NCBI GenBank assembly: GCA_002281555.1
Contig: NCGJ01000001.1
Span: 186,001-250,000 of the forward strand
From: Hydrogenophilales bacterium 28-61-23
GTDB taxonomy: Bacteria; Pseudomonadota; Gammaproteobacteria; Burkholderiales; Thiobacillaceae
DNA: 64,000 bases
Direction: 5' to 3'
Under the pieces are notes generated by a model, which did not search any database, had not been told where the DNA came from, and saw nothing but the letters and a program-made list of their open reading frames with translations. A program made the translations under genes and the position numbers. This document shows, one piece after another, positions 9,263-57,010 of the stretch. The stretch's first letter is position 1; each line of letters opens with the position of its first letter.

Positions 9263-9904
9263 TTAAGTAGAGTTAAGTGAATGAATTGCCTGTTTTAAAT
9301 ACAAGGCATGCAACCGTCGCACCTGCATATCAAGACCGCCCAACTCCCCGCTGTTATCGATCAAATCGTCGGCAATGGCGATACGTGACTGGTTGCTGGT
9401 TTGCGCGGCAAGGATGGCTTTAGCCTGGTCAACATTCAATCCTGGCCGAGCGGCAGTACGTGCAAGTTGTTGGCTCTCATCACAATCAACGACGACGACA
9501 CGATCCAGCAAAGGCTGGTACGCAGCCAGATTTTCGACTAACAACGGCACCATCAGCAAAGCATATGATCGAGCGTTCGATACCCTCAGAGATTCAAGCC
9601 TCCGTACGACCTCGGCACGAATAAGCGGGTGCAGGATTGCCTGAAGTTTTTTTCTGGCGGCTGGATCGGAAAACACGAGAGTCCGCATGGCTGTCCGATC
9701 CAGCGCCCCCGCCTGGGTGGCAAATTCGCCGCCAAACGTATCGACGATAGCGGCCATCGCGGCGCCATTGGGCGCGGTCAGTTCATGAGAAATCGCATCG
9801 GCATCGATGACATCCGCCCCTAACCGCGCAAACAGCTCGGCAACGGTGCTTTTTCCGCATCCAACGCCGCCCGTGAGGCCGACACAGAACGGCCTGTGCC
9901 TCAT
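9263..9904 (-). CDS. coaE: Dephospho-CoA kinase
   Basis: CoaE catalyses the last step of coenzyme A synthesis, phosphorylating the 3'-hydroxyl of dephospho-CoA with ATP. The 213-residue protein has the P-loop GGVGCGKST at residues 12-20, the DADAISHELT segment that binds dephospho-CoA, HPLIRAEV and the LVPLLVE-type lid region (MVPLLVENLAAYQPL). I chose the ATG at 9904 because it makes MRHRPFCVGLTGG and overlaps the pilD stop codon by one base (TGATG). The open frame continues upstream in pilD but has no homologous sequence there. Confidence 0.95.
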   Translation of the reverse strand: MRHRPFCVGLTGGVGCGKSTVAELFARLGADVIDADAISHELTAPNGAAMAAIVDTFGGEFATQAGALDRTAMRTLVFSDPAARKKLQAILHPLIRAEVVRRLESLRVSNARSYALLMVPLLVENLAAYQPLLDRVVVVDCDESQQLARTAARPGLNVDQAKAILAAQTSNQSRIAIADDLIDNSGELGGLDMQVRRLHALYLKQAIHSLNST

Positions 9905-10782
9905 CACGCTACGCCAGACGTACCCAACCAGAATTGCAGCAAGCCATCGCCCCAGAACAGCGCGATTAACCCGCCCAAGGCCAGCCATGGACCGAACGGC
10001 ATGGGCTTGGATCGATCGCGGCCCGCGAACGTAATCATGACAATCCCGATCAAGGCGCCGGCAAGACTCGCCGCGAGCACAATGGGAAGCAACATTTTCC
10101 AACCCAGCCACGCCCCAAGCGCCGCAAGTAATTTGAAATCGCCGAACCCCATTCCTTCTTTGCCGGTAAGCACTTTGAACAGGTGGTAAATCGACCAAAG
10201 CGTGAGGTATCCCGCTACCGCGCCGATGACCGCTTGATCAAGCGGGCAGAACAACCCATTTAGGTTAACCAGAAGACCGACCCAGGCCAGCGGCAGGGTG
10301 ACACTATCCGGAAGCAGCTGTGTGTCCAGGTCGATGAAAGCCAGGGCAACCAGACTTGCCAGCAAGCCCCAGACAAACGGGGTTTTGATTTCCACGCCCC
10401 AGCGCCATGCGGCATAACCGAATAAAACACCGGTCAGTATTTCCACCAATGGATAGCGCCTCGAAATCGGTGTACCGCAGCTCGAACATCGACCTCGGAG
10501 GACAAGCCAGCTCAGAACGGGAATGTTTTCATACCAGGTAATCAAATGATCGCACTTAGGGCAAGCTGAGCGCGGGATGACAAGGTTGTACGCCTTGCTT
10601 TCGACAAGCGTCTCGCCATTTATCCAGGCGCATTGTTCGTGCCATTCGCGTTGCATCATGAGCGGCAGGCGATGGATTACAACATTGAGAAAACTGCCGA
10701 CCAGCAATCCAAACACGGCGGCAATCGACGTGAATAACGCGGGTTGGGCACCCAGCAAATCAAGCATCGGAGCAAAAATCAT
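9904..10782 (-). CDS. pilD: Type IV prepilin peptidase / N-methyltransferase PilD
   Basis: PilD is the integral-membrane A24 aspartyl peptidase that removes the leader from prepilins and N-methylates the new terminus. The 292-residue protein has the N-terminal GSFLNVVIHRLP motif. A cytoplasmic zinc-type tetracysteine follows (Cys74, Cys77, Cys99, Cys102), as do the active-site aspartate regions FIDLDTQLLPD (151-159) and GMGFGD (Asp215). Several hydrophobic helices are present. It starts 11 bases after pilC and overlaps coaE by one base, which places it mid-operon. No pilin gene lies in the window. Confidence 0.96.
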   Translation of the reverse strand: MIFAPMLDLLGAQPALFTSIAAVFGLLVGSFLNVVIHRLPLMMQREWHEQCAWINGETLVESKAYNLVIPRSACPKCDHLITWYENIPVLSWLVLRGRCSSCGTPISRRYPLVEILTGVLFGYAAWRWGVEIKTPFVWGLLASLVALAFIDLDTQLLPDSVTLPLAWVGLLVNLNGLFCPLDQAVIGAVAGYLTLWSIYHLFKVLTGKEGMGFGDFKLLAALGAWLGWKMLLPIVLAASLAGALIGIVMITFAGRDRSKPMPFGPWLALGGLIALFWGDGLLQFWLGTSGVA

Positions 10783-10793
10783 CAGGTCGATGC

Positions 10794-42806: not shown

Positions 42807-45800
42807 TCACGGCAACCAGGCCTTGGCCCAGACGTCCAGGTTGTCCTCAAGAATCCAGTTGGCATTGATGTAGTCGCGCAACGCATCGCCGCGCCGCGCC
42901 AGTTCATCGCGGTCGGCAACATGGCCGCGGATGGCATCGACCCAGTCCTTGAAGCGGTTGGACACGCGGGTCACCGGATAGTCGCCGCGATAGGGCGTGA
43001 GGTCGGTGCAGATCACCGGGTAACCCAGCACGCCATATTCCAGCAGCCGCAAATGGCTCTTGCCATGATTGAACGGGACATCCTCCAGCGGCGCGACAGC
43101 CAGATCGAGGTCGAGACTGGCCAGTTTGGCGGGGTATTCGTCGAGGGCGACACCGGCATGGAATTCCGCCACATACGGGCGGATATTCGCCGGGCACATG
43201 CCCAGAAACACCCAATCCACCTCTTTTGCCGTGGCCTTGACCACATCGAAAATCACGGCCAGATCGCCATCGTGGGTCACGCTGCCGGCCCAGCCGACGC
43301 GGGCTTTCTTGCGATGCATGCGCTCAGGCTGCAATTTCCCCCAGCGGCTGCGTTCGATGTAGTTCTGTACCACGACAATGTCCGCGCAATAGCCCTTGTA
43401 TTCCTCGGCCAGGAATTCGGTCGAAACAATGAATCGGTGGCACAGGGAAATACCCTTGCGGAAGCGCTTGTGCAGATCTTTCTGCTCGACAAAATGCTTC
43501 TTGCGGATGCTGCGGATCGGGATATTGGTAATCAGGTCGTCGATCTCGTAAACCCTGAAAGCCTGGCTGTGGCGTATGTAGCGCGCGATGAAATCGAGCT
43601 GGTGCGGGTCGACCTGGCGTTGCAACAGGATGACATCGGGCTCCATGCGGAACAGTTCGGGCGGGGTCAGGTAGTTGCCGGTGTCCCAGCCCATGATTTT
43701 CCCGGCGTCGTTCAGCGCCCGCATCGGCGCGACGATGCGGTACTCGCCGCAGCCGAAGCGGTCGGCGGGGTGCGCCAGAATGCGCGGACGCGGGCGCCAG
43801 TCCGGATCCCAGGCCAGAGCCGGGGCGATCTCGATCAGGAAATCGCGTCCATGGGTGGACAGGTTGCGGTTGTAGGCCGGATCGAAGGCGACATCGTGCC
43901 GCCAGGTGTCGAAGAAACGATTCTGCTCCTCGCTGAAACGCGCCACCTTGGCGGCATGCGCGCTGGCTTCGGTGGCGCCCTTCTGGCTGACCGAACCTTC
44001 ATGCAGAACGCGTGCATGCGGAGTGAATACGGTGCGATAGCCCTTGCGGCCCAAGCGCTGGCAGAAGTCGGCGTCGTTGTAGGAAACCGCGAAGCGGGTC
44101 TCATCGAAACCGTCCAGTTCCAGATACAGCGAACGCTTCACCAGCATGCAGGCCGCGGTTACCGCGGAAAACTCCTGAGCCAGTTTGAGACGGCCGAAAT
44201 AGCCGTTGTCGTCGGCCGGATGGTCGATGAACGGATGGTCGGCGGGCGCATCGTTCATGCCCAGAATCACGCCGGCGTGCTGAATCTTGCCATCCGGATA
44301 GAACAGCTTGGCGCCGACCGCGCCGACATCCGCTTGTTGCGCGATACCCAGCATTTCCTCCAGCCATTCCTCGTGCAGGATCGCGGTATCGTTGTTCAGC
44401 AGCAGCAGGTATTCGCCTTGCGCCTCGCGCGCGGCGCGGTTGTTCATGGCGGAGAAATTGAACGGCCCGGCGCAATCCAGAACACGCAAGCGCGGCGAAT
44501 TGAGCGCGCGCAATTCGTCCAGATAGGCCACCGCCTCCGGCTCGTCGCTGCCGTTGTCGAGCACCAGGATTTCGCAGTTGGAATAGCCGGTGCCTTCGAT
44601 CAGCGAGGTCAGACAACGGCGCAGGAATTCGACCTGGTTTTTGCTCGGAATCAGGATGGACACCAGTGGGTTGCCGAGCACCGGGTAACGCACATGCAGC
44701 GTTCCGGGCAGCAGGCCCTCATCCAGGCTTGCCAGCAGCCCGCAACGGGCCAGATGCGCCGCCAGCGCGCGCCGATGCACATCCCCGATTTCTTCCGCGC
44801 CGTCCCGCTTGCGTCCGCCTTCGGCATGGCGGTGATAAAGCACATCGGCCAGATGGGCGATACCGGCATGGCCGACTTGCTCCCACGCGCGCAGGACCAG
44901 ATCGAATGCTTCGACGCCTTCCAGATTCAGATCGAAACCGTTCAATTGCGCGAACAGATCGCTTCGACACAACAGCAATCCGCCCACCGCGAAGGGCGCG
45001 CCACGCAGCATTTCCAGATTGAAATCGGTCTTGAAAAACGGCGTGGAATGCGCGTCCTCGGCATCGACCTGATCTTCATCGCTGTACAGCACGCGCAGTT
45101 CGTGATGCCGGTCGGCCTTGTCGGCAAAGGTGAACAAGGCGTGCGGCGCCAGCTTGTCGCCGGCCTCCCACATGCCCACCCATTGCGCGGGCGTTTCCAG
45201 CAAGGCGCGGTTGGCCGCCGCCAGTTGCTTGTCCGGCGTGGCCTGGATCCATTCGATCGATGCCACCTCCTGGTAGGCGGAATGCGCCGGGCCGGTCGCG
45301 ACGATGCTCAGATGCCAGTCCGGGTAGAACTGATGGCCGAGCGACTTGATGTTGTTGGCCAGATGTTCTTCCCGGCCCTCGGGCACGATGATGGCGAGAT
45401 GGAAGCGCGGCCGGCTTGCGAACGCTTCCATGCGTTCCGCGATCCAGAGCGCATCCCGCTTCAGATAGGAATGGCCCAGTTGCCAGAGTTGATAGAAGTC
45501 CTGCTCCACGCCGGCTGTCGCGCCCGCGGGCAGCGGCTTGGCCAGCAGCATGATCTGCAACGCCTTGAGATCCTCGAACTCCTCGTCGCCGACATCCTTC
45601 AGGATGATTTTGTCGGTTTCCACCGTGCTGCAACCGGGCGGGCGGGTCAGATTTTCGAATCCGGCGGCAAGGGTGCGGGCGGTGCGGCTGACTTCGTAGC
45701 CGGTCTCGCGGAACATGCGCAACATCTCGGCGCGGGTGAACCAGCGGATATGGGTGATGTCGAGCAGGCCTTCCTTGGCATACGGAAAGCGGCCGCCGGC

Positions 45801-47570
45801 GAGTTCGTTCAGCAGCCATAGATTGCGCGCATTGGGAATGCTGGCGAGCACCTGGGCATCGTCGGTCAATAACGGACGCAAATGCAGCAACGCCGACCAG
45901 GGATCGTAAATATGCTCCAGCACATCGGCGACGATCACCGTGTCGATGCTGCCGGGCAGGATGCCATGTTCGGCGAAATCGACGTCTTCCAGCTTCTGCT
46001 CCAGCACCAGATCGATGCGCTCGCGCGCCTTTTCGGCCGCCGGCGCCGACAACTCGATGCCGCCGACCCAGCAATCGGGATGCCGAGTCTTGAGGTATTG
46101 GCCGGTAGCGCCAGCCGCGCAGCCGATATCCAGCACCCGGCGCGGTATATGTTCCATCAGCTCGAGCAGGTCGCTGCGCGGACGGTCGTGATAAAGCCCC
46201 ATCAGCTCGGCGTCTTCCAGATTGGACAAACGCTCCCAGACGTAGCCATCGGCCGGACGCTGGGCATGCTCCGAAGCCGCGTCGGCGAAAGGACGCGCCA
46301 TATCGCACATCAGTTGCGCGACCCGCTCGCTGCCGCTGCCATCGACGCTGACGTTGTAATTGGGCGCTTTGAGCGCCATCAGTTCGAGCAGGCTGGCGCG
46401 CAATTCGGCGTCGGACAGCACCATCTCCAGCATCGGGGCCAGTTCGTTCGGGGCGGCTTCCAGAATGCCGGACTCGGCGTCGAAGCTGGGGCCCATGCGC
46501 AGGCCCAGTTCGTTCATCAGATTGATCGCCGGCGTTCCGGCCAGCATGGCTTCCACGGACAGATTGGAGTCGACCGAGACCAGTACATCGGCGGCGGTGA
46601 CCAGCAATTTGGTGTCGTCCTGGGTATAGACGTATTGCGCCGGCCCAAGGCCGGCGGCGCGCGCCAGACGATCCGTGCTGTCACGGCCATGCGCGACATT
46701 GGAGGGACGGTCCTTGATGACGATATTGATCGCGCGCCCGGCGTCGATCAGCGCGCGGCAGGCGAGCAGAAACGTCGCCAGCGTCTCATCGTAAATGGCG
46801 GCATAGGAAGCCGCCGTGTAAAACGCCGCCCAGGTGGTGCCGAATACCAGCAGCGGCGCGCTCGGATCCAGACCGAACTTCTCGTTCAGCGCCTCGCGCA
46901 CGCGTGGTTTCTCGGCCTTGAGACCGGCATAGACATCCCAGGCCGGATTGCCGGTCACGCGCAGCCGATCCGGGCTGATCCCGATATCGCGATAGCCTTC
47001 GCCGCCGCGTTCGCCGAAGACCGCCAGCACGTCCGCCGTGAGCGCGGCATGCACCGTATAGGGCGTGGCCAGCGCAATCCCGTGCGCCAGGTGCAGGCTG
47101 GGCACCTGATGCGCTTTTGCCCACTCGGCGGCCATGCGCCCGCCAGGCATCAGGTCCTCGTTGATCAGCAGCAGTTCAATGTTGTAAATGGCGGCGGCGG
47201 CATCCAGCGCCTCCACCAGGCACATGACTTGCTTCAGCCGCGCGACCAGATCCTTGCCCAGAACCGCGTCGAAACCTTCCGCCGCGAAGCCGTGCAGTTC
47301 GCAAAATGTCCGCCAGATCGCCTCGTTTTGCACTTCCGCGAGCTGGGCGACTTTGGCCGCCGCCGCTTCGGCGATGGCGGCGCTACGTTCCGCCGGCAGC
47401 AACTCATCCAGCGCCACCAGGCTGCTGCCTGTTTTTGCCACGATGCGCCGCAAGCTGTCGGAGCAGAAGCTGGCCGGCGCCAGCACCACGCGCGGACGAT
47501 TGGCCAGATAGCGGGGCAGGACATGCACGTTCTTGTCCCAGAGCAGGTAGATCAGCGCGGTCTGTTTCAT
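42807..47570 (-). CDS. Multidomain glycosyltransferase-methyltransferase fusion, 1587 residues
   Basis: Reading from the N-terminus, residues 1-430 resemble a GT-B-type polysaccharide transferase (HLAHGIALATPYTV, then VIKDRPSNVA and SVDSNLSVEAMLAGTPAINL). Residues 440-675 are a class I methyltransferase (VLDIGCAAGATGQYLK at 479-494, then VIVADVLEHIYDPWSA). Residues 720-1200 are tandem GT2 domains, with a DxD-like YSDEDQVD at 829-836 in the first and LVLDNGSD and LLLLNNDTAI in the second. Residues 1262-1587 are a second GT-B-like domain, ending in a GT4-type core (HGKSHLRLLEYGVLGYPVI). The gene overlaps the preceding methyltransferase gene by ATGA. By context it probably builds or transfers the flagellin glycan; acceptor and sugars are not shown by sequence. 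Confidence 0.85.
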   Translation of the reverse strand: MKQTALIYLLWDKNVHVLPRYLANRPRVVLAPASFCSDSLRRIVAKTGSSLVALDELLPAERSAAIAEAAAAKVAQLAEVQNEAIWRTFCELHGFAAEGFDAVLGKDLVARLKQVMCLVEALDAAAAIYNIELLLINEDLMPGGRMAAEWAKAHQVPSLHLAHGIALATPYTVHAALTADVLAVFGERGGEGYRDIGISPDRLRVTGNPAWDVYAGLKAEKPRVREALNEKFGLDPSAPLLVFGTTWAAFYTAASYAAIYDETLATFLLACRALIDAGRAINIVIKDRPSNVAHGRDSTDRLARAAGLGPAQYVYTQDDTKLLVTAADVLVSVDSNLSVEAMLAGTPAINLMNELGLRMGPSFDAESGILEAAPNELAPMLEMVLSDAELRASLLELMALKAPNYNVSVDGSGSERVAQLMCDMARPFADAASEHAQRPADGYVWERLSNLEDAELMGLYHDRPRSDLLELMEHIPRRVLDIGCAAGATGQYLKTRHPDCWVGGIELSAPAAEKARERIDLVLEQKLEDVDFAEHGILPGSIDTVIVADVLEHIYDPWSALLHLRPLLTDDAQVLASIPNARNLWLLNELAGGRFPYAKEGLLDITHIRWFTRAEMLRMFRETGYEVSRTARTLAAGFENLTRPPGCSTVETDKIILKDVGDEEFEDLKALQIMLLAKPLPAGATAGVEQDFYQLWQLGHSYLKRDALWIAERMEAFASRPRFHLAIIVPEGREEHLANNIKSLGHQFYPDWHLSIVATGPAHSAYQEVASIEWIQATPDKQLAAANRALLETPAQWVGMWEAGDKLAPHALFTFADKADRHHELRVLYSDEDQVDAEDAHSTPFFKTDFNLEMLRGAPFAVGGLLLCRSDLFAQLNGFDLNLEGVEAFDLVLRAWEQVGHAGIAHLADVLYHRHAEGGRKRDGAEEIGDVHRRALAAHLARCGLLASLDEGLLPGTLHVRYPVLGNPLVSILIPSKNQVEFLRRCLTSLIEGTGYSNCEILVLDNGSDEPEAVAYLDELRALNSPRLRVLDCAGPFNFSAMNNRAAREAQGEYLLLLNNDTAILHEEWLEEMLGIAQQADVGAVGAKLFYPDGKIQHAGVILGMNDAPADHPFIDHPADDNGYFGRLKLAQEFSAVTAACMLVKRSLYLELDGFDETRFAVSYNDADFCQRLGRKGYRTVFTPHARVLHEGSVSQKGATEASAHAAKVARFSEEQNRFFDTWRHDVAFDPAYNRNLSTHGRDFLIEIAPALAWDPDWRPRPRILAHPADRFGCGEYRIVAPMRALNDAGKIMGWDTGNYLTPPELFRMEPDVILLQRQVDPHQLDFIARYIRHSQAFRVYEIDDLITNIPIRSIRKKHFVEQKDLHKRFRKGISLCHRFIVSTEFLAEEYKGYCADIVVVQNYIERSRWGKLQPERMHRKKARVGWAGSVTHDGDLAVIFDVVKATAKEVDWVFLGMCPANIRPYVAEFHAGVALDEYPAKLASLDLDLAVAPLEDVPFNHGKSHLRLLEYGVLGYPVICTDLTPYRGDYPVTRVSNRFKDWVDAIRGHVADRDELARRGDALRDYINANWILEDNLDVWAKAWLP

Positions 47571-48848: not shown

Positions 48849-49913
48849 TCAGGCCAACAAATCCCAGGACATCGGTGTGCCGCGCCGAACGTCGCGCCCG
48901 ACCCGCTTGCCGATCAAAGTGTCGTACAGGCCCGGCGCCAGGCCATAGCCGGGACGGATGGCGCGCAGATTGGCCGCGCTCAGCACGTCGCCGGCGCGCA
49001 CATCGGCCACGATATAAAGCGAGCGGCGGAACACCAGGGAATTCTTCTCCGCTTCGCTCGGGCCGTAGCTCACCTGGCCCAAAGCCCGCCAGGCGCGTTC
49101 GCTTTCAACCCGCAGTTGCGCGAACTCTTCCGGCTCCAGCGAGAAGGTGGAGTCGACACCGCCATCGTCGCGACGCAGCGTGAAGTGCTTTTCGATCACC
49201 GTCGCGCCCAGCGCCACGCTGGCGACCGCCACGCCGAGACCCATGGTGTGGTCGGACAGGCCGACTTCGATGTTGCCAGCCGCGCAAGCGAACAAGTCGC
49301 GCAGATGCGGAATGGTGAGCAGATTGGTGTTCTCGGGCGTGGCCGGATAGGTGCTGGTGCATTTGAGCAACACCAGATCGCGGCAACCGGCGGCACGGGC
49401 GGCGCGCACGCTCTCGTCCAGTTCCGCCACCGTGGCCATGCCGGTGGAAATGATCATCGGCTTGCCGGTGGCCGCCACCTTGCGTATCAGCGGCAGGTCG
49501 GTGTTCTCGAAAGACGCGATCTTGTAGGCGGGAACGTTCAGTTGTTCCAGGAAATCGACGGCGGTTTCGTCGAACGGTGTGGAAAACGCCAGCATGCCGC
49601 GTTGCCGCGCCCGTTCGAATATCGGCTGGTGCCATTCCCACGGGGTGTAGGCCTGTCGATACAGCGCGTGCAGCGACTGCCCGCCCCACAGGGGATGCTC
49701 GACATGGAACTCGCCTTCATCCAGATCCAGCGTCATGGTGTCGGCGGTATAGGTCTGAATCTTCAGCGCATGCGCGCCGGCCTGGGCGGCGGCATCGACG
49801 ATGGCCAGCGCCCGCTCCAGCGACTGGTTGTGATTGCCGGACATTTCGGCGATCAGGAAGGGCGGCTGGCCGCGGCCGATGGCGCGTCCACCGATGGCGA
49901 TCTCAAGACTCAT
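48849..49913 (-). CDS. pseI: Pseudaminic acid synthase PseI
   Basis: This enzyme condenses the 2,4-diamido-hexose with phosphoenolpyruvate to form pseudaminic acid. The 354-residue NeuB-family protein has the TIM-barrel signatures FLIAEMSGNHNQSLERA, ALKIQTYTADTMTLD, PYK-like VPAYKIASFENTD, GKPMIISTGMA and SDHTMG. A C-terminal SAF antifreeze-like domain follows (SLYIVADVRAGDVLSAANLRAIRPGYGL). The GGQSLHALYRQAYTPWEWH stretch is characteristic of PseI rather than NeuB or LegI. It overlaps the formyltransferase gene by 11 bases and follows pseB, pseC, pseF and pseG. Confidence 0.93.
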   Translation of the reverse strand: MSLEIAIGGRAIGRGQPPFLIAEMSGNHNQSLERALAIVDAAAQAGAHALKIQTYTADTMTLDLDEGEFHVEHPLWGGQSLHALYRQAYTPWEWHQPIFERARQRGMLAFSTPFDETAVDFLEQLNVPAYKIASFENTDLPLIRKVAATGKPMIISTGMATVAELDESVRAARAAGCRDLVLLKCTSTYPATPENTNLLTIPHLRDLFACAAGNIEVGLSDHTMGLGVAVASVALGATVIEKHFTLRRDDGGVDSTFSLEPEEFAQLRVESERAWRALGQVSYGPSEAEKNSLVFRRSLYIVADVRAGDVLSAANLRAIRPGYGLAPGLYDTLIGKRVGRDVRRGTPMSWDLLA

Positions 49914-50550
49914 GGGGTTCGACTTTTCTCAGGGTGATTTCGTAACGATGGCCAAGGTAATCGAAGAATGCCGGATATCTGTCCGCATCCGCCACCCGCA
50001 GCAGGTTGAACTGTTCCGCAATACTGCGTTGAACATCAAGCCGACTATCCTCGGGCGTGCGTTTTCGATAGTAACTGGGTTCGCCGGCCTGAGTCCGGGG
50101 CTGGATGGTGTCCAGATGCGCGATGGCGAAATCCATCAGCGCCAGTTCCGCGTCGAACAGCGCGGCATTGATCTCATCGACCAGTTCATGCCCGGCAAAA
50201 TGCAGCCGGATTTGATGCCAGATTGCGCCGCTATCGACCTTGTCGCCGGCTTCCAGCAGCGTGACCGGAATGTCGGCGCACCCGGCCAGAATCTGCCAGA
50301 CCAGGGGCGACCAACCGCGTCCTTGCGGCAGATCGCTGGCATGGATCACCAGACTGGCGCGATAACGGGCGCGCGTATCGGCATCAATGACTTCATTGCA
50401 GGAAATCAAAAACAACATTTCCCCGCCGCTCAATTGGGCCCGGCCTTGCGCCAGTTCCACCGTGTGGGCCGGGCGCCGGGCGGCGCACCATTGCAGCAGG
50501 CGGGGGTAAATCGGGTGTCCGGAATCCGAACACAAGACTGAAATTCTCAT
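49903..50550 (-). CDS. Formyltransferase-fold protein in the position of PseH
   Basis: This 215-residue protein resembles the catalytic domain of methionyl-tRNA formyltransferase and sugar N-formyltransferases. LVIHASDLPQGRGWSP corresponds to the N10-formyl-THF-binding LPxxRG loop with the active-site His. GDKVDSGAIW carries the likely catalytic Asp, and SCNEVI may hold the partner Asn. It lacks the C-terminal tRNA-binding domain. In known pseudaminic acid pathways this slot is filled by PseH, a GNAT acetyltransferase; none is present here. I infer N-formylation of the 4-amino group of the altrose intermediate, giving a 7-N-formyl nonulosonate. It overlaps pseG and pseI. Confidence 0.85.
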   Translation of the reverse strand: MRISVLCSDSGHPIYPRLLQWCAARRPAHTVELAQGRAQLSGGEMLFLISCNEVIDADTRARYRASLVIHASDLPQGRGWSPLVWQILAGCADIPVTLLEAGDKVDSGAIWHQIRLHFAGHELVDEINAALFDAELALMDFAIAHLDTIQPRTQAGEPSYYRKRTPEDSRLDVQRSIAEQFNLLRVADADRYPAFFDYLGHRYEITLRKVEPHES

Positions 50551-51563
50551 CCCGACAGAGCCTCCACCACCCTGCCGCAGCCGGCCCCATCGACCATTTC
50601 CAGACAGGCCTGCCGCATGGCTTTGCGTTGCGCGGGTGCGTCGAGCAGCGCGACGATGGCTTCGGCCAAGCGTTCGGCGCTCACCGCGCCGGCATCACCG
50701 ACCCAGGTCAACATCCCCGCCGCCTGGGCCGCCGCGGCGATGGGACGCTGGTTGTCGGCAAAGGTAATCGCCAGCGCGGGCAGGCCGACGCAGGCGCGCT
50801 CCCAGGTCACCACGCCGGACGCACCGATAGCCAGATCGGCGCGCGCCATCAACCCGGCCAGATCGTCGGCCTGACAGTGGAAGTGCGTGCCGGGGCGCGT
50901 GGCGCAGCGGGCTTTCAGCCGGTCGCAATACGGGTAAGCCTGGCCGACGACCACCTCCACGAGCAGATCGAATCGTTCAAGGCGATCCAGCGCGTCCAGC
51001 GTCAAACCGGTCAGGTCGAGCGGATCGCTGCCACCGAAACAGACCAGGATATTGCCGACGCTGTCCAGGCCTGGCGCGATCGCGACTCGGGCGCGCTGAA
51101 ACTCCGGGCGCAGCAAGGCATAACTCGGGCCAAGCAGGACACGGCAATCGGCTGGCAGCAACCCGTCATAGCGATGACCGGTTTGCAGGTTCTGGTCCAG
51201 CAGCACGTCGCAATCGTGCATGCGGTCGGCCAGATCGTCGATGGCCAGGATGGATTCCACCAGACCGCGCTGTGCCCGTTCCCAATCGGCACCCAGCGCG
51301 TAGTGGTCCACCACCAGCCAGTCGTGCGGCGCGCCGACGGCGAGCGCCTGGCTGCTGGCGGCGGCATCCGGCATCGCATCCGGCAGCCAGTCGAGCGCAT
51401 GGCCGCGCGCGAGGATCAGGTCACCCAGATGGCCGGGCGAGGGCCGGCAAAGAAATCGCGTCCGCGCGCCGCGCTCGAGCAATTTATCGGCCAGAGTCAG
51501 GCAGCGCATGACGTGGCCGGCACCTATCTGGACCGACGCATCGGCACGAAAGGCCACCTTCAT
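50547..51563 (-). CDS. pseG: UDP-2,4-diacetamido-2,4,6-trideoxy-L-altropyranose hydrolase PseG
   Basis: PseG removes UDP from the diacylamido-altrose before condensation by PseI. The 338-residue GT-B-like protein begins KVAFRADASVQIGAGHVMRC, the family start with the G-x-G-H motif, and has VVDHYALGADWE. C-terminal signatures are VCFGGSDPLDLTGL and GASGVVTWERACVGLPAL. I chose the ATG at 51563 because it overlaps the pseF stop as ATGA; the longer upstream frame runs inside pseF. With formylation instead of acetylation the true substrate would be the N-formyl analogue. Confidence 0.93.
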   Translation of the reverse strand: MKVAFRADASVQIGAGHVMRCLTLADKLLERGARTRFLCRPSPGHLGDLILARGHALDWLPDAMPDAAASSQALAVGAPHDWLVVDHYALGADWERAQRGLVESILAIDDLADRMHDCDVLLDQNLQTGHRYDGLLPADCRVLLGPSYALLRPEFQRARVAIAPGLDSVGNILVCFGGSDPLDLTGLTLDALDRLERFDLLVEVVVGQAYPYCDRLKARCATRPGTHFHCQADDLAGLMARADLAIGASGVVTWERACVGLPALAITFADNQRPIAAAAQAAGMLTWVGDAGAVSAERLAEAIVALLDAPAQRKAMRQACLEMVDGAGCGRVVEALSG

Positions 51564-52264
51564 GCGCCGAGTTCTCCGTTTTCGTGCAGCGCGGTAAACA
51601 TCAACTCGGCACGCCGCCAATCTTCCTCGGTGTCGATATCCTGAACCCGATGCCGGGGCAGGATCAGCGGCAGCGATAGCGGCGAGAACAGGATTTCGTC
51701 GTCGAGAAACGCCCTCGCCCGTCCCCAATAGAACTGGCCGGCGTCATGCCATGCCGGCTCCAGGTCTTGCGAGCGGGTGGCTCGATATTCCGGGTACATC
51801 GCCTCCACTTCGCCCCGCGCGTTCAGCCGCAAGGCGCGTTGAATGGGAAAGGGAAAACTGGTGACGGAGAAAACAAAGGATTTACCGGAATCGAGCAGAC
51901 GGTCATGGCCCGCACGCAGATCGCTGGCTTGCACGAATGGCGCGGTGGCATAGAGACAACAGGCGACTTCCACCGGCATGCCATGATCGTCATGCCAGCG
52001 GATGGCCTGTTTGACCACGGCGTTGGTGCCGGTGTGGTCGTCGGCGAGATCGCGGGGGCGCGTGAAAGGCGTTTCCGCGCCGTGCTTGCGCGCCACTTCG
52101 GCAATCTCTTCATTGTCGGTGGACACCATCACCCGGTCGAACAAGCCGGTCTCCAGCGCGGCCTGGATCGACCAGGCGACGATCGGCCGGCCGGCGAACA
52201 GGCGGATGTTCTTGCGCGGTATGCGCTTGCTGCCACCGCGTGCCGGAATCACACAGAGTTTCAC
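51560..52264 (-). CDS. pseF: Pseudaminic acid cytidylyltransferase PseF
   Basis: PseF activates the nonulosonic acid with CTP, giving the CMP-sugar donor. The 234-residue protein has the NeuA/PseF signature PARGGSKRIPRKNI, the DTNEEI-type region (STDNEEIAEVARKHGAE) and the TFVSFPFPIQRAL-like segment FSVTSFPFPIQRAL. The start codon is GTG at 52264, overlapping the pseC stop as GTGA. In Campylobacter and Helicobacter this is the last enzyme before flagellin glycosylation. Confidence 0.93.
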   Translation of the reverse strand: MKLCVIPARGGSKRIPRKNIRLFAGRPIVAWSIQAALETGLFDRVMVSTDNEEIAEVARKHGAETPFTRPRDLADDHTGTNAVVKQAIRWHDDHGMPVEVACCLYATAPFVQASDLRAGHDRLLDSGKSFVFSVTSFPFPIQRALRLNARGEVEAMYPEYRATRSQDLEPAWHDAGQFYWGRARAFLDDEILFSPLSLPLILPRHRVQDIDTEEDWRRAELMFTALHENGELGA

Positions 52265-53421
52265 GCCAAAGCCTCGCGCAGCGCAGCCACCACCCGGTCT
52301 TGTTCGGTGTCGCTCAGACCGGGATAGAGCGGCAAGGTGATGGCCCGGACGTAGTAGTCCTCGGCGACCGGAAAATCACCGGCGGAAAAACCGAGGCGCC
52401 GGTAATCCGGCTGCAAATGCACCGGAATGTAATGAACGTTGACGCCGATGCCCGCCGCGCGCAGCTGCTCGAACACGGCGCGACGGCGACTGGCGGCGTG
52501 CAACCGGATGACATAAAGATGCCAGGCGCTGGCGCTAGCCGGGTCGCGCCAGGGCGTCGTCAACGGCAGATCGGCAAGCAAACGGTCGTAACGGTCGGCC
52601 AGACGCCGACGCGCGTCGACGAAGCGGTCCAAACGCCGCAACTGAGATTCGCCCAATGCGGCTTGCAGATCGGTCATCCGATAGTTGAAACCGAGTTCGA
52701 CCTGTTCGTAGTACCAAGGGCCGTGCGCCGCCTGTGCCGCGGCATCGCGGGCGATGCCGTGGCTGCGCAGGCGGGCCATGCGCTCAGCCAAACGCGGATC
52801 GTTGGTCAGCGCCATGCCGCCCTCGCCGGTGGTGACGATCTTGACCGGGTGGAAACTGAACACGGTAATGTCGGCGTAGCGGCCATTGCCGATGGGCTGG
52901 TCCTGGTAACGCCCGCCGATGGCATGCGAAGCATCTTCGACGATGCGGAAACCGTAGCGTTGCGCCAGCGCGTTGATCGCGGACATGTCGCAACTCTGGC
53001 CGGCGAAATGAACCGGCACGACCACTTTGGGCAATTTGCCCGCCTTTTCGGCCTGTGCCAGTTTGGCCGCCAGTGCGGCGGGAGACAGGTTGAGGCTGTG
53101 CGGATCGATATCGACGAAATCGATTTCCGCGCCGCAATAACGGGCACAGTTGGCGGATGCGACGAAGGTGTTTGGGGTCGTCCAGAGGCTGTCGCCCGGC
53201 CCCAGGCCCAGCGCCAGGCAGGCCAGATGCAGCGCCGACGTCGCGCTGTTGACGGCGACGGCATGCCGCGCCCCGCAACAATTCGCCACGGCTTTCTCGA
53301 ACCGAGGCACGGCCGGACCTTGTGTCAGCCAATCGGATTGCAGTACCGCCACGACCGCGGCAATGTCTTCACTGCTGATGTCCTGACGGCCGTAGGGAAT
53401 CACGCTAGGACCTGGATTCAC
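52261..53421 (-). CDS. pseC: UDP-4-amino-4,6-dideoxy-N-acetyl-altrosamine transaminase PseC
   Basis: PseC is a PLP-dependent aminotransferase that puts an amino group on C4 of the PseB product. The 386-residue DegT/AroH-family protein has IPYGRQDISSEDIAAV at the start and VAVNSATSALHLACLAL. The internal-aldimine lysine is in SFHPVKIVTTGEGG, and ELGFNYRMTDLQAALG and NVHYIPVHLQPDY follow, all matching PseC. I chose the GTG at 53421, two bases after the pseB stop; the open frame extends upstream within pseB without similarity. Confidence 0.93.
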   Translation of the reverse strand: MNPGPSVIPYGRQDISSEDIAAVVAVLQSDWLTQGPAVPRFEKAVANCCGARHAVAVNSATSALHLACLALGLGPGDSLWTTPNTFVASANCARYCGAEIDFVDIDPHSLNLSPAALAAKLAQAEKAGKLPKVVVPVHFAGQSCDMSAINALAQRYGFRIVEDASHAIGGRYQDQPIGNGRYADITVFSFHPVKIVTTGEGGMALTNDPRLAERMARLRSHGIARDAAAQAAHGPWYYEQVELGFNYRMTDLQAALGESQLRRLDRFVDARRRLADRYDRLLADLPLTTPWRDPASASAWHLYVIRLHAASRRRAVFEQLRAAGIGVNVHYIPVHLQPDYRRLGFSAGDFPVAEDYYVRAITLPLYPGLSDTEQDRVVAALREALA

Positions 53422-53423
53422 GC

Positions 53424-54437
<1,014 letters not shown>

Positions 54438-54486: not shown

Positions 54487-54861
54487 TCAGACTTCCCCTC
54501 TCAGACCGGCAGCCACGTTTAGATTAATGTTGATCAACGCATCCAGTTTTTCCGGTGCGGGATAAGCCAATGTCTCGAATGTACGTCGGTCAACAAAAAA
54601 GCTCAGCGCCAGAATGTTGCGCTTGATTTCATCCGGAAGCGGATTGTCCTGCATTGAAATTTCGGCTTGAAAAAAAGTCCAGACGCGCTGGTTATAGCTA
54701 AGGGCGTCTTCGAGCTCGGCGTCATGGTTATCTCGAGCCCAATTTTCTTTGATGGATTGCAACTGCACTGCGGCTTTAGTTAAAACAGTCGCTTCGATAT
54801 CACGTTGGGACAACGTCGCTTTTTCTACGTTGCGGTATGCATCAAGCGGATTTGCGGGCAT
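54487..54861 (-). CDS. flaF: Flagellin regulator FlaF
   Basis: FlaF promotes flagellin translation or secretion in Alphaproteobacteria, acting against FlbT. The 124-residue protein has the family pattern NPLDAYRNVEKATLSQRDIEATVL, LYNQRVWTFFQAEI-type ALSYNQRVWTFFQAEI, LPDEIKRNILALSFFVDRRTFE and INININ-type LININLNVAAGL. It overlaps flbT by 20 bases and lies between flbT and the pseudaminic acid genes. The assignment is by recognisable family pattern; function is taken from the family. Confidence 0.9.
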   Translation of the reverse strand: MPANPLDAYRNVEKATLSQRDIEATVLTKAAVQLQSIKENWARDNHDAELEDALSYNQRVWTFFQAEISMQDNPLPDEIKRNILALSFFVDRRTFETLAYPAPEKLDALININLNVAAGLRGEV

Positions 54862-55240
54862 TGCTGACCAACTCCTGTTCGTAACGAATCAATTCACGCG
54901 CCACTTTCAGCGCCTGGTAATACTGACCGTCAAGCACATAATTACTCACTTTTCCAATGAACTCCACCGTACTGGGCGCGGCTTGAATAACTGCTTTGAC
55001 TTCATCCCAGTAGAACTGGTGATAGCGCGCCATGTTTGGCGTATCCATGTACATCATCTGGACAGCCAGGTATATCCGTTTACAAGGCGTGTCGGCATCG
55101 CTCTCCTTCAAGATATCTTTTTCACGCAGGACGGGTACGTCATTCAAAACCGCCAATTGGCAACGGCTGTCACCATTAACAAGAACGGCCCCACCGAGAA
55201 AAATCTTCTCGTGGGGCCGCAGATCTAGTTTAAGAGGCAT
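54842..55240 (-). CDS. flbT: Flagellin mRNA regulator FlbT
   Basis: FlbT binds the leader of flagellin mRNA and represses or destabilises it in Caulobacter when flagellum assembly is incomplete. The 132-residue protein begins PLKLDLRPHEKIFLGGAVLVNGD, the family start, with KRIYLAVQMMYMD in the middle and the YYQALKVARELIRYEQELV helix near the C-terminus. It lies 18 bases after the gene of unknown function and overlaps flaF. A likely target is the flagellin leader at 57011-57085. Confidence 0.9.
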   Translation of the reverse strand: MPLKLDLRPHEKIFLGGAVLVNGDSRCQLAVLNDVPVLREKDILKESDADTPCKRIYLAVQMMYMDTPNMARYHQFYWDEVKAVIQAAPSTVEFIGKVSNYVLDGQYYQALKVARELIRYEQELVSNARKSA

Positions 55241-55258: not shown

Positions 55259-56044
55259 TTACTTGGACTCCGCCGCTTGCACCAGTTGGTATCCATTACC
55301 ACCGATACCACGTTTTCCTAGTTCAGCAATTTGTTGACGGACGCCGGTCGCTTCGCTTTTTGATTCAGGTGAGTCCGCCTGCCTCACGAAGCCAACCACA
55401 TCCTTCCACATCCCAGTCTGAAAATCTTCCAGAGAGGAATTCAAGGCTTTGACTTGGCCAAGCACTTTGCTGACGTCCGCATCGGTTGCCACAGACGGAT
55501 CAAGTACAGGTATTTCCCATAACCGATCCTTGATAGCCTTAACCGCATCGGATGAAACAGCCGTAACAGCCGTATCGCCCGCCTTGGTTACAGCATCACC
55601 CCGAGTGCCCAATAGTTGCCCAACCGTATCGACAGCATCAGGACGCGGGAAAGTCAGCGCATCGATCTGCTTGCGCAGACCAGTTAAATCGTTGAGCAAC
55701 AAGACACGTTCCGGACTGCCGATCGGGTAAGGCGGATACATCTTAACAATCGCGCTCAAACTACTCTCGACCTTGTCCAGCAGTTGCCCTGCTTTCTCAA
55801 CGGCATTACCCACTTCCCGCACAACTGACGCCGCTTTATTCAGCGAATCCTGGCCCACTTGCAATTGAGCAAACACCCCAGCCACTTGCGTAGCCACAGT
55901 AGCCTGCCCTTCACGCGCGACCCCGAATTCCGGCACCACAGCATCTTCCGGGCGTACCAGACCGGTTGAACGATGAATAGGCGCCGCACCAGATTGACCA
56001 ACCACCGAGTAACCTAGGCCAGCCCCTGAGATTTCAGTGACCAT
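55259..56044 (-). CDS. Protein of unknown function in the flagellin operon, 261 residues
   Basis: I do not recognise this family. The start is the ATG at 56044, preceded by a strong GGAGGGGG ribosome-binding site. The protein is soluble, with no signal peptide. It is helical and rich in Val/Ala/Gln in the first half (VATQVAGVFAQLQVGQDSLN, then VVREVGNAVEKAGQLLDKVE), suggesting a coiled coil, and has a Pro-rich turn YPPYPIGSPERVLLLNDL. It ends GIGGNGYQLVQAAESK. It sits between flagellin and flbT on the same strand, so a chaperone, cap or flagellin-secretion role is possible. Nothing in the sequence shows this directly. Confidence 0.75.
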   Translation of the reverse strand: MVTEISGAGLGYSVVGQSGAAPIHRSTGLVRPEDAVVPEFGVAREGQATVATQVAGVFAQLQVGQDSLNKAASVVREVGNAVEKAGQLLDKVESSLSAIVKMYPPYPIGSPERVLLLNDLTGLRKQIDALTFPRPDAVDTVGQLLGTRGDAVTKAGDTAVTAVSSDAVKAIKDRLWEIPVLDPSVATDADVSKVLGQVKALNSSLEDFQTGMWKDVVGFVRQADSPESKSEATGVRQQIAELGKRGIGGNGYQLVQAAESK

Positions 56045-56058
56045 TTTTACCCCCTCCC

Positions 56059-56082
56059 CGCGCGGATCCATGAACCCGCGCG
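56059..56082 (-). other. Hairpin in the flagellin intercistronic region
   Basis: CGCGCGG and CCGCGCG form a 7-bp stem around a 10-base loop, 26 bases after the flagellin stop codon and just before the ribosome-binding site of the next gene. There is no T-run. It could protect the 3' end of flagellin mRNA and keep flagellin more abundant than the downstream genes. Confidence 0.5.
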
Positions 56083-56107: not shown

Positions 56108-57010
56108 TTAGAACAGTCTCAAAACAGACTGCTCAGACTGCGAGGAAATACTCAGTGCCGTAGATCCCAATGATTGCTTGGTTTGCAGCGAGAGCATGTT
56201 GGCGCCCTCTTCATTGGTATCGGCCTCAGTCAACTTGGTTGCGCCAATAATCAGCGAATTCACCATTTCACTGATAAACGTCTGCCGTGAAGTAAGCGTA
56301 CTCAGGTTAGCCGACAACTCGGAGGCTTTGGTTTGCAGCGTAGCGATAGCCGCATTCAGCGTCGTTTCAGCCGCATCCAACTCACCTCCAGAATCCAGAT
56401 TCGCGGATGTGATGTTTCCGGTCGTCCCAGCAACGGTGAGCGTACTGCCGCCACCGGAGATTCCCAGGCCGCTTGCACCGGAGTTGAAGCCAGACATCAC
56501 AATCTTCGTCGTGGCGTTTTCGTTGAAGTTGACTGACAGGGTCACGCTTCCGCTGGTCAGGAAGTTGGTACCCTTGTAGCTGGAGTCGGTTACCAGATTG
56601 TTCAACTGCTCGACCAGGCGGTTATATTGCCCGGTCAAACCACTGGCGCCGCCCGCAGCCGCACCACCCAGGGTGACAGCGCTGTTAACGGTGTCATTGA
56701 TCGCCGACCGTGCTTGCGTAAGAACACCACGCAACGCTTCAATCGTTGTCAAAACACCTTTGATACCCGAGTCAGCAGCTTTGACGGTTTGAATCGCCTC
56801 ACTGATACCGTCTTTGAGGCCGGTTAATTGATTGGCACGTGAAGTATGGCCTTGTGCCGCAAAAAAGTTGGCAGGATTGTCAACTGCAGTGTTGACGCGC
56901 TTGCCGGTGGAAAGACGTTCTTCGGTTTGCCCCAACAAGCGTGCAGTAGACTGCAAGCTGATCAGGTTGGAACGCATGGATGATGATAGGCCGATTTCGC
57001 CGATTGCCAT
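56108..57010 (-). CDS. Flagellin, short form
   Basis: This is the flagellar filament subunit. The 300-residue protein has the conserved D0/D1 N-terminus (SLQSTARLLGQTEERLSTGKRVNTAVDNPANFFAAQ) and C-terminus (ISEMVNSLIIGATKLTEADTNEEGANMLSLQTKQSLGSTALS). The middle is short and Gly/Thr/Ser-rich (about residues 150-215). Its length and pattern are closer to the compact flagellins of Alphaproteobacteria than to long gammaproteobacterial ones. The Ser/Thr-rich centre is where O-linked nonulosonate would be attached, by analogy with Campylobacter. A ribosome-binding site AAGGAG precedes the ATG. Confidence 0.93.
   Translation of the reverse strand: MAIGEIGLSSSMRSNLISLQSTARLLGQTEERLSTGKRVNTAVDNPANFFAAQGHTSRANQLTGLKDGISEAIQTVKAADSGIKGVLTTIEALRGVLTQARSAINDTVNSAVTLGGAAAGGASGLTGQYNRLVEQLNNLVTDSSYKGTNFLTSGSVTLSVNFNENATTKIVMSGFNSGASGLGISGGGSTLTVAGTTGNITSANLDSGGELDAAETTLNAAIATLQTKASELSANLSTLTSRQTFISEMVNSLIIGATKLTEADTNEEGANMLSLQTKQSLGSTALSISSQSEQSVLRLF

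Follow-up and report, generated by a model that had tools for sequence, protein, structure and literature searches.

The window analysed here, a 64,000-nucleotide stretch of DNA from Hydrogenophilales bacterium 28-61-23, contains a set of pseudaminic acid (Pse) biosynthesis genes next to flagellar genes. Within this set lies a gene for a 215-aa formyltransferase-fold protein that, together with its relatives, is called FT1 below. The features of the region are as follows:

42807–47570, minus strand: protein of 1587 aa combining methyltransferase and family-2 glycosyltransferase domains, likewise downstream of pseI in the PseH-bearing loci L130, L131 and L134
47567–48829, minus strand: methyltransferase-domain protein of 420 aa that follows pseI in L130, L131 and L134 as well
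48849–49913, minus strand: pseI, pseudaminic acid synthase (TIGR03586, 488.9 bits)
49903–50550, minus strand: FT1, 215 aa, ATG start, in the pseG-pseI slot, which is the PseH slot
50347–50349 (Val68, at the position of the catalytic Asn), 50341–50343 (His70) and 50233–50235 (Asp106), minus strand: residues of FT1 considered below, together with Cys51
50547–51566, minus strand: pseG, UDP-sugar hydrolase, 339 aa (TIGR03590, 284.5 bits), in which no PseH domain was found
51560–52264, minus strand: pseF, pseudaminic acid cytidylyltransferase (TIGR03584, 326.5 bits)
52261–53436, minus strand: pseC, aminotransferase (TIGR03588, 568.2 bits)
53424–54419, minus strand: pseB, inverting 4,6-dehydratase (TIGR03589, 549.6 bits)
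54487–54861, minus strand: flaF, flagellar protein (PF07309)
54842–55240, minus strand: flbT, flagellar protein (PF07378)
55259–56071, same strand as the Pse genes: 270-aa ORF between flagellin and flbT, no Pfam match above cut-off
56108–57010, minus strand: flagellin (PF00669, PF00700)

PseB, PseC, PseF, PseG and PseI all exceed the curated NCBIfam cut-offs and are encoded on one strand in the order pseB-C-F-G-FT1-I, which bears out the initial annotation's description of five Pse enzymes in overlapping genes. The FT1 reading frame itself shares 4 bases with pseG and 11 bases with pseI. With flagellin, FlbT and FlaF adjoining, the flagellar setting of the operon is firm, and flagellin is the likely glycan acceptor. 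A search of the source genome with PF01973, which we take as a stand-in for Maf transferases, gave no match, a weak test in that its control matched only in archaea.

By several measures, FT1 resembles formyltransferases. The Pfam family Formyl_trans_N matches it with an E-value of 9.7e-6 and 25.9 bits, 0.2 bits short of the cut-off of 26.1, and a phmmer search of PDB sequences ranks ArnA first (E 1.6e-13). In Foldseek, the predicted structure (pLDDT 94.8) matches 1zgh first (7.9e-16) and ArnA second (3.4e-15), with VioF also among the matches, all at E ≤ 6e-14; the structural comparison with VioF and ArnA that had been proposed earlier thus comes out as anticipated. On the strength of this model, FT1 can be assigned a formyltransferase fold with confidence, in line with the initial reading of the protein between pseG and pseI. 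Eleven aligned relatives share 40–78% identity, and dN/dS across the three copies from the same genus is 0.12–0.21, at a dS close to saturation. FT1 is under purifying selection; the possibility of a chance ORF was discarded on the grounds of this dN/dS and the conservation in relatives.

The window contains no match to the GNAT PseH family TIGR03585, and a profile built from 11 PseH sequences finds nothing there at E ≤ 1. The earlier statement that the window lacks a GNAT acetyltransferase thus holds for the PseH type, the type for which it was searched. Neither NCBIfam nor the PseH profile detects a PseH fused to PseG of the window. The initial annotation had also named a PseH elsewhere in the genome as a finding that would speak against it: across the whole source genome (98% complete, 30 contigs), TIGR03585 yields nothing above its cut-off, and the best match, a 390-aa ORF on another contig, was rejected at just 22.2 bits, on a scale on which, within the genus, PseH domains fused to PseG reach 37–54 and separate PseH genes 135–136 bits.

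The position of FT1 in the operon recurs in its relatives. Among the 20 FT1 loci without FT2, the sister lineage of FT1 described below, pseG lies directly before FT1 in 16 and pseI after it in 15, in one of these with an intervening gene (L067 and L068, halves at contig ends, are tallied as one locus); in L062, a PseI-like gene is found 4 kb beyond FT1. The same pseG-pseI slot is occupied by PseH in the PseH-bearing operons L097 and L098. Within the genus, sampled as 23 genomes (the source genome and G001–G022), PseI is above cut-off in 13, of which three have FT1 without PseH, seven PseH without FT1, three neither and none both. The FT1 carriers are the source genome, G005 and G006, with PseH above cut-off in none of them; PseH lies beside PseI in G007, G008, G010, G011, G012, G016 and G017, standing alone in some and forming the C-terminal part of PseG in others; and both are missing in G001, G019 and G022. 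The genus test of FT1/PseH exclusion alone gives p 0.07.

A comparison of the flanks shows how far the exchange extends. G012 and G017, both with PseH, have the flanks of the window, with flagellin on one side and the methyltransferase and glycosyltransferase genes on the other. Among the other genomes with PseH, G008 keeps the downstream methyltransferase and glycosyltransferase genes, G007 and G016 match on the flagellin side only and have different downstream genes, in G010 a fragment of the methyltransferase gene is seen, a long way downstream, and G011 shows none of the window's flank genes. The FT1-bearing G006 has flagellin upstream and lacks the downstream methyltransferase and glycosyltransferase genes. 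The swap therefore concerns the pathway slot, the flanks being retained in some genomes only.

In wider samples, FT1 was found in 7 of 369 genomes of the class and 6 of 398 of the phylum, the source genome included in both counts. Across the 39 PseI loci of the class sample, PseH (TIGR03585, E ≤ 1e-8, within 6 kb) is present at 1/6 loci with FT1, a fusion, versus 20/33 without (Fisher p 0.077). The PseH profile adds one genome, G136 (L085), whose PseH-like domain is fused to PseG (92 bits), making it 21/33 (p 0.068); L091 and L096 match the profile only weakly (20 and 18 bits). With class and genus combined and the source genome counted once, PseH occurs at 1/8 loci with FT1 versus 28/43 without, at a p of 0.015 that is to be read with small counts, shared ancestry ignored and p > 0.05 for class alone and genus alone. 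PseH is also missing at 12/33 class and 3/10 genus PseI loci without FT1, and since such loci are common, the absence of PseH by itself is weak evidence. When the PseH profile was run on 27 FT1 loci, in which the two halves of the single split FT1 (L067 and L068, from one genome) count as two entries, it returned one strong match, the fusion in L061, and one weak match in L075 (27 bits, 4.7 kb off).

Other genes are found at these positions as well. At the pseG side of pseI, L132 (5476–7127) and L084 (7542–9241) have neither PseH nor FT1 and carry genes that probably encode a phosphoesterase and an NAD-dependent epimerase, a pair that is perhaps a third alternative, going by labels guessed from sequence. 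In L128 (7291–8013) and L129 (8442–9164), what we take to be a WbqC-like protein adjoins pseI where PseH or FT1 would sit. Immediately upstream of pseG, three Pse loci of the same genus share a 149-aa gene, presumably of the PIN-domain type (L127:10230–10679, L131:5817–6266, L135:5764–6213), and the Pse cluster L066 of G424 includes a second, broken PseI-like gene (9724–10793).

In N10-formyl-THF formyltransferases, catalysis is attributed to an Asn-His-Asp triad, of which the Asn is considered necessary. The initial annotation had pointed to formyltransferase motifs in the protein, and it is right about the LPxxRG loop (LPQGRG) and about Asp106, but it had passed over the triad Asn, which in the window is Val68. 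This substitution is found in 26/26 FT1 sequences (the entries G005/L014 and L003, judged by length and place, being treated as one contig and counted once), so that none of the 26 has the full triad; His70, Ser72, Pro75 and Asp106 are invariant in all of them. By comparison, Asn is present in 8/8 aligned canonical sequences, namely the PurN-, Fmt- and PurU-like proteins and FT-A of the source genome and ArnA, Fmt, PurN and PurU of E. coli. At position 51, 24/26 FT1 sequences have Cys where the canonical enzymes carry an aromatic residue. The window protein has both the lineage motif, Val-x-His-x-Ser-x-Leu-Pro-x-Gly-(Arg/Lys)-Gly, and the pseG-pseI position that goes with it.

Loss of the Asn extends to FT2, where Cys, Val or Ile takes its place in 9/9 readable sequences (L086 is excluded from these counts) with His and Asp kept. 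A tree of 41 sequences, which leaves out the truncated and frame-broken FT2 of L086 and the half-gene FT1 of L068, splits FT1 plus FT2 from the rest with a bootstrap of 100. Five further sequences labelled FTB have Gly at this position in three cases and Asn in two, the latter ArnA-like. A separate cluster of the legionaminic acid type in the source genome (C4, about 144–154 kb; L070), with LegB, LegC, NeuB and NeuC, encodes two formyltransferase-like proteins, in which the motif reads Asn-x-His and Gly-x-His, respectively, beside a PIG-L-like protein.

Such an active site raises the possibility that FT1 works at the PseH step but differs from N10-formyl-THF formyltransferases in the group transferred, in the donor or in the mechanism, in which case an Asn that steadies the formyl group would not be needed. 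The consistent loss of Asn with retention of His and Asp in both lineages, the Cys at position 51, the roughly 34 residues by which FT1 is shorter than ArnA ahead of the motif and the variety of N-acyl groups known on Pse all fit this alternative. However, the solved relatives of FT1 with a named activity are formyltransferases or other formyl-folate enzymes, and the Gly in three of the five FTB sequences indicates that Asn has been lost elsewhere among formyltransferase-like proteins and may be dispensable. We therefore regard a different group, donor or mechanism as unlikely. That FT1 has no transferase activity, being degenerate or regulatory, as the incomplete triad could also suggest, is highly improbable: beyond His70 and Asp106, about 20 further positions are invariant in FT1, the dN/dS values are low and FT1 exactly replaces an enzyme gene. 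The retained His and Asp together with the purifying selection rather suggest that FT1 is probably an active enzyme with a triad one member short. The missing Asn in turn offers a direct way to test how far the classical formyltransferase triad can be dispensed with.

FT2, the Asn-less sister lineage, tends to occur with a deacetylase. A PIG-L deacetylase is present in 7/9 FT2 loci versus 2/20 loci with FT1 only (p 7e-4), in a tally made by eye that counts L067/L068 as one locus, leaves out L126 and includes L008, which ends 0.6 kb past the FT2 start, where PIG-L could not show. In L126, FT2 again occurs with PIG-L, and in the class sample FT2 is found in 3/369 genomes, each time clustered with PIG-L and PseI. 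Clusters combining FT2, PIG-L and PseI were noted in L061, L075, L082, L086, L110, L111, L112 and L126. FT2 is partnered by either FT1 or a PseH-like gene in 9/10 loci, while L086, the remaining one, is cut by the contig end; the PseH partners in L082, L112 (G278) and L126 fall below the curated PseH cut-off. This pairing is what one would expect if FT1 and PseH carried out one and the same step.

The gene content of the FT2/PIG-L/PseI clusters suggests an N-acyl exchange at the other amine, and with it a modular code in which FT1 or PseH would serve N-7 and FT2 plus deacetylase N-5. A wider version of this idea, in which FT1 and FT2 form a separate, mostly nonulosonate lineage without the Asn, with a different active-site solution or acyl donor, that makes up such a modular Pse N-acyl code, is put forward only tentatively. 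If it were true, the genes of an operon would tell whether Pse5Ac7Fo, Pse5Fo7Ac or Pse5Fo7Fo is to be expected. As the window has FT1 alone and no FT2, the sugar predicted for it is Pse5Ac7Fo.

Not all FT1 relatives fit a simple replacement of PseH. In the distant genome G149, a single 406-aa ORF consists of a PseH domain (148 bits, above cut-off) followed by FT1. This PseH-FT1 fusion is followed by an FT2-GNAT fusion, the two lying at L061:7640–9972, and the same Pse operon holds PIG-L. The earlier proposal that a formyltransferase-fold protein replaces PseH accordingly stands for the slot and for the alternation within the genus, but not as a universal rule. The fusion could also mean that the target of FT1 is a different position, N-5 for instance, or an intermediate further along the pathway, with the C-4/C-7 amine acylated by an enzyme other than PseH or left free. 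The PseI loci with neither FT1 nor PseH are compatible with such a reading, as is the report that Shewanella flagellin bears a Pse-like sugar carrying only one acetyl (PMC3765264). Set against this are the alternation of FT1 and PseH within the genus, the better fit of FT2 plus PIG-L, which occur together with FT1, to a role at N-5, and the placement of FT1 beside DegT-type aminotransferases where PseI was not seen; a different position or a later intermediate is thus quite unlikely.

The last of these observations comes from loci outside recognisable Pse operons. In one of the 20 FT1 genome entries searched (G432), no PseI match was obtained at E ≤ 1e-30, and its locus, L007, shows neither pseG nor pseI around FT1. 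Five contigs of the virus collection IMG/VR carry FT1 relatives; L075 has a full Pse operon, while neither pseG nor pseI was seen on L074, L076, L077 and L078. A DegT-type aminotransferase lies near FT1 in L074, L077 and L078, an arrangement consistent with an enzyme whose substrate is an amino sugar and not the finished nonulosonate, and L076 has FT1 together with FT2 and a phage capsid gene. Judging by these neighbours, FT1 can apparently serve other amino sugars too. The formyltransferase relatives in annotated collections (163 plasmid records, 5 phage records) are only remote, below 60% identity throughout and below 32% among the matches listed; with a second FT1 as query, 184 plasmid records were retrieved, with identities of at most 31% among the best 15 of the 184.

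Taken together, the fold, the operon, the slot, the alternation with PseH in the genus, the selection and the conserved His and Asp make it on balance likely that FT1 is the third-step N-acyltransferase of the Pse pathway, replacing PseH and giving Pse5Ac7Fo for flagellin. That FT1 acts at the PseH step is very likely; that the modified sugar ends up on flagellin is quite likely; and that the group transferred is formyl is likely, a reading supported by the named solved relatives of the fold, which are formyltransferases and their kin. From the same evidence we infer substrate, donor, product and acceptor. PseB and PseC would produce UDP-4-amino-4,6-dideoxy-beta-L-AltNAc, onto whose 4-amino group FT1 would move a formyl group, most likely from N10-formyl-THF. 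PseG would then strip the UDP, PseI would add phosphoenolpyruvate and PseF would yield CMP-Pse5Ac7Fo, from which a transferase would place the sugar on flagellin. The 5-N-acetyl, 7-N-formyl product named in the initial annotation stays the best prediction, the formyl group and its attachment to flagellin being putative. If this is true, the acyl group of flagellar Pse would be set by the exchange of one gene in a fixed pathway and could be read from the genome.

Several published observations provide a context for such a sugar. A polysaccharide of Pseudoalteromonas is known to contain 5-acetamido-7-formamido pseudaminic acid, in agreement with the earlier remark on N-formylated Pse in surface polysaccharides. 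Published reports likewise note flagellin glycosylation islands with formyltransferase genes, suggest a formyltransferase for 5-N-formyl legionaminic acid in Halorubrum and mention other N-acyl groups on Pse, e.g. hydroxybutyryl and lactyl. In the open-access literature searched, no account was found of the FT1 lineage, of the term ‘Pse5Ac7Fo’, of the PseJ enzyme or of the function of 1zgh.

Four PDB entries, 6ci2, 6ci4, 6ci5 and 6edk (192–217 aa), are named ‘formyltransferase PseJ’, and we take them to be the Anoxybacillus sugar formyltransferase of the 7-formamido-Pse pathway. PseJ of Anoxybacillus has reportedly been shown to formylate the PseC product, yielding 7-formamido pseudaminic acid and replacing PseH. 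A formyltransferase in place of PseH is thus already known, and the idea behind the initial annotation is not new. The window resembles such a system in having a Pse operon with a formyltransferase gene and without PseH, and both FT1 and, by that report, PseJ are formyltransferases at PseH's place in the pathway. Close kinship of the two proteins was considered and rejected: phmmer with FT1 finds no PseJ at E ≤ 1, and an FT1 profile matches PseJ at 7e-7 to 1e-6 as against 2e-17 for E. coli ArnA, so that PseJ, ranked below 1zgh, ArnA and many others, is only a remote relative. A profile of residues 1–75, meant for the PseJ alignment, gave no match.

The nearest solved structure is 1zgh, a ‘methionyl-tRNA formyltransferase’ of Clostridium thermocellum, which is the best FT1 profile match (E 5.9e-19) and the best fold match and likewise has Val-x-His instead of Asn-x-His, but which groups by sequence with FT2 (E 2.6e-60 to an FT2). 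With the N-terminal domain of ArnA, VioF and other sugar N-formyltransferases, FT1 has the fold in common and keeps the active-site His and Asp and the Leu-Pro loop; unlike ArnA, it lacks the Asn, has Gly after LPx and Cys for the aromatic residue at position 51 and is shortened on the N-terminal side of the motif. PseH (TIGR03585), finally, shares the operon slot and presumably the pathway step with FT1, whereas it is a GNAT enzyme with acetyl-CoA as donor and belongs to another family and fold. Viewed against these systems, a gene swap of a known kind, carried out by a catalytically odd lineage, is fairly well supported.
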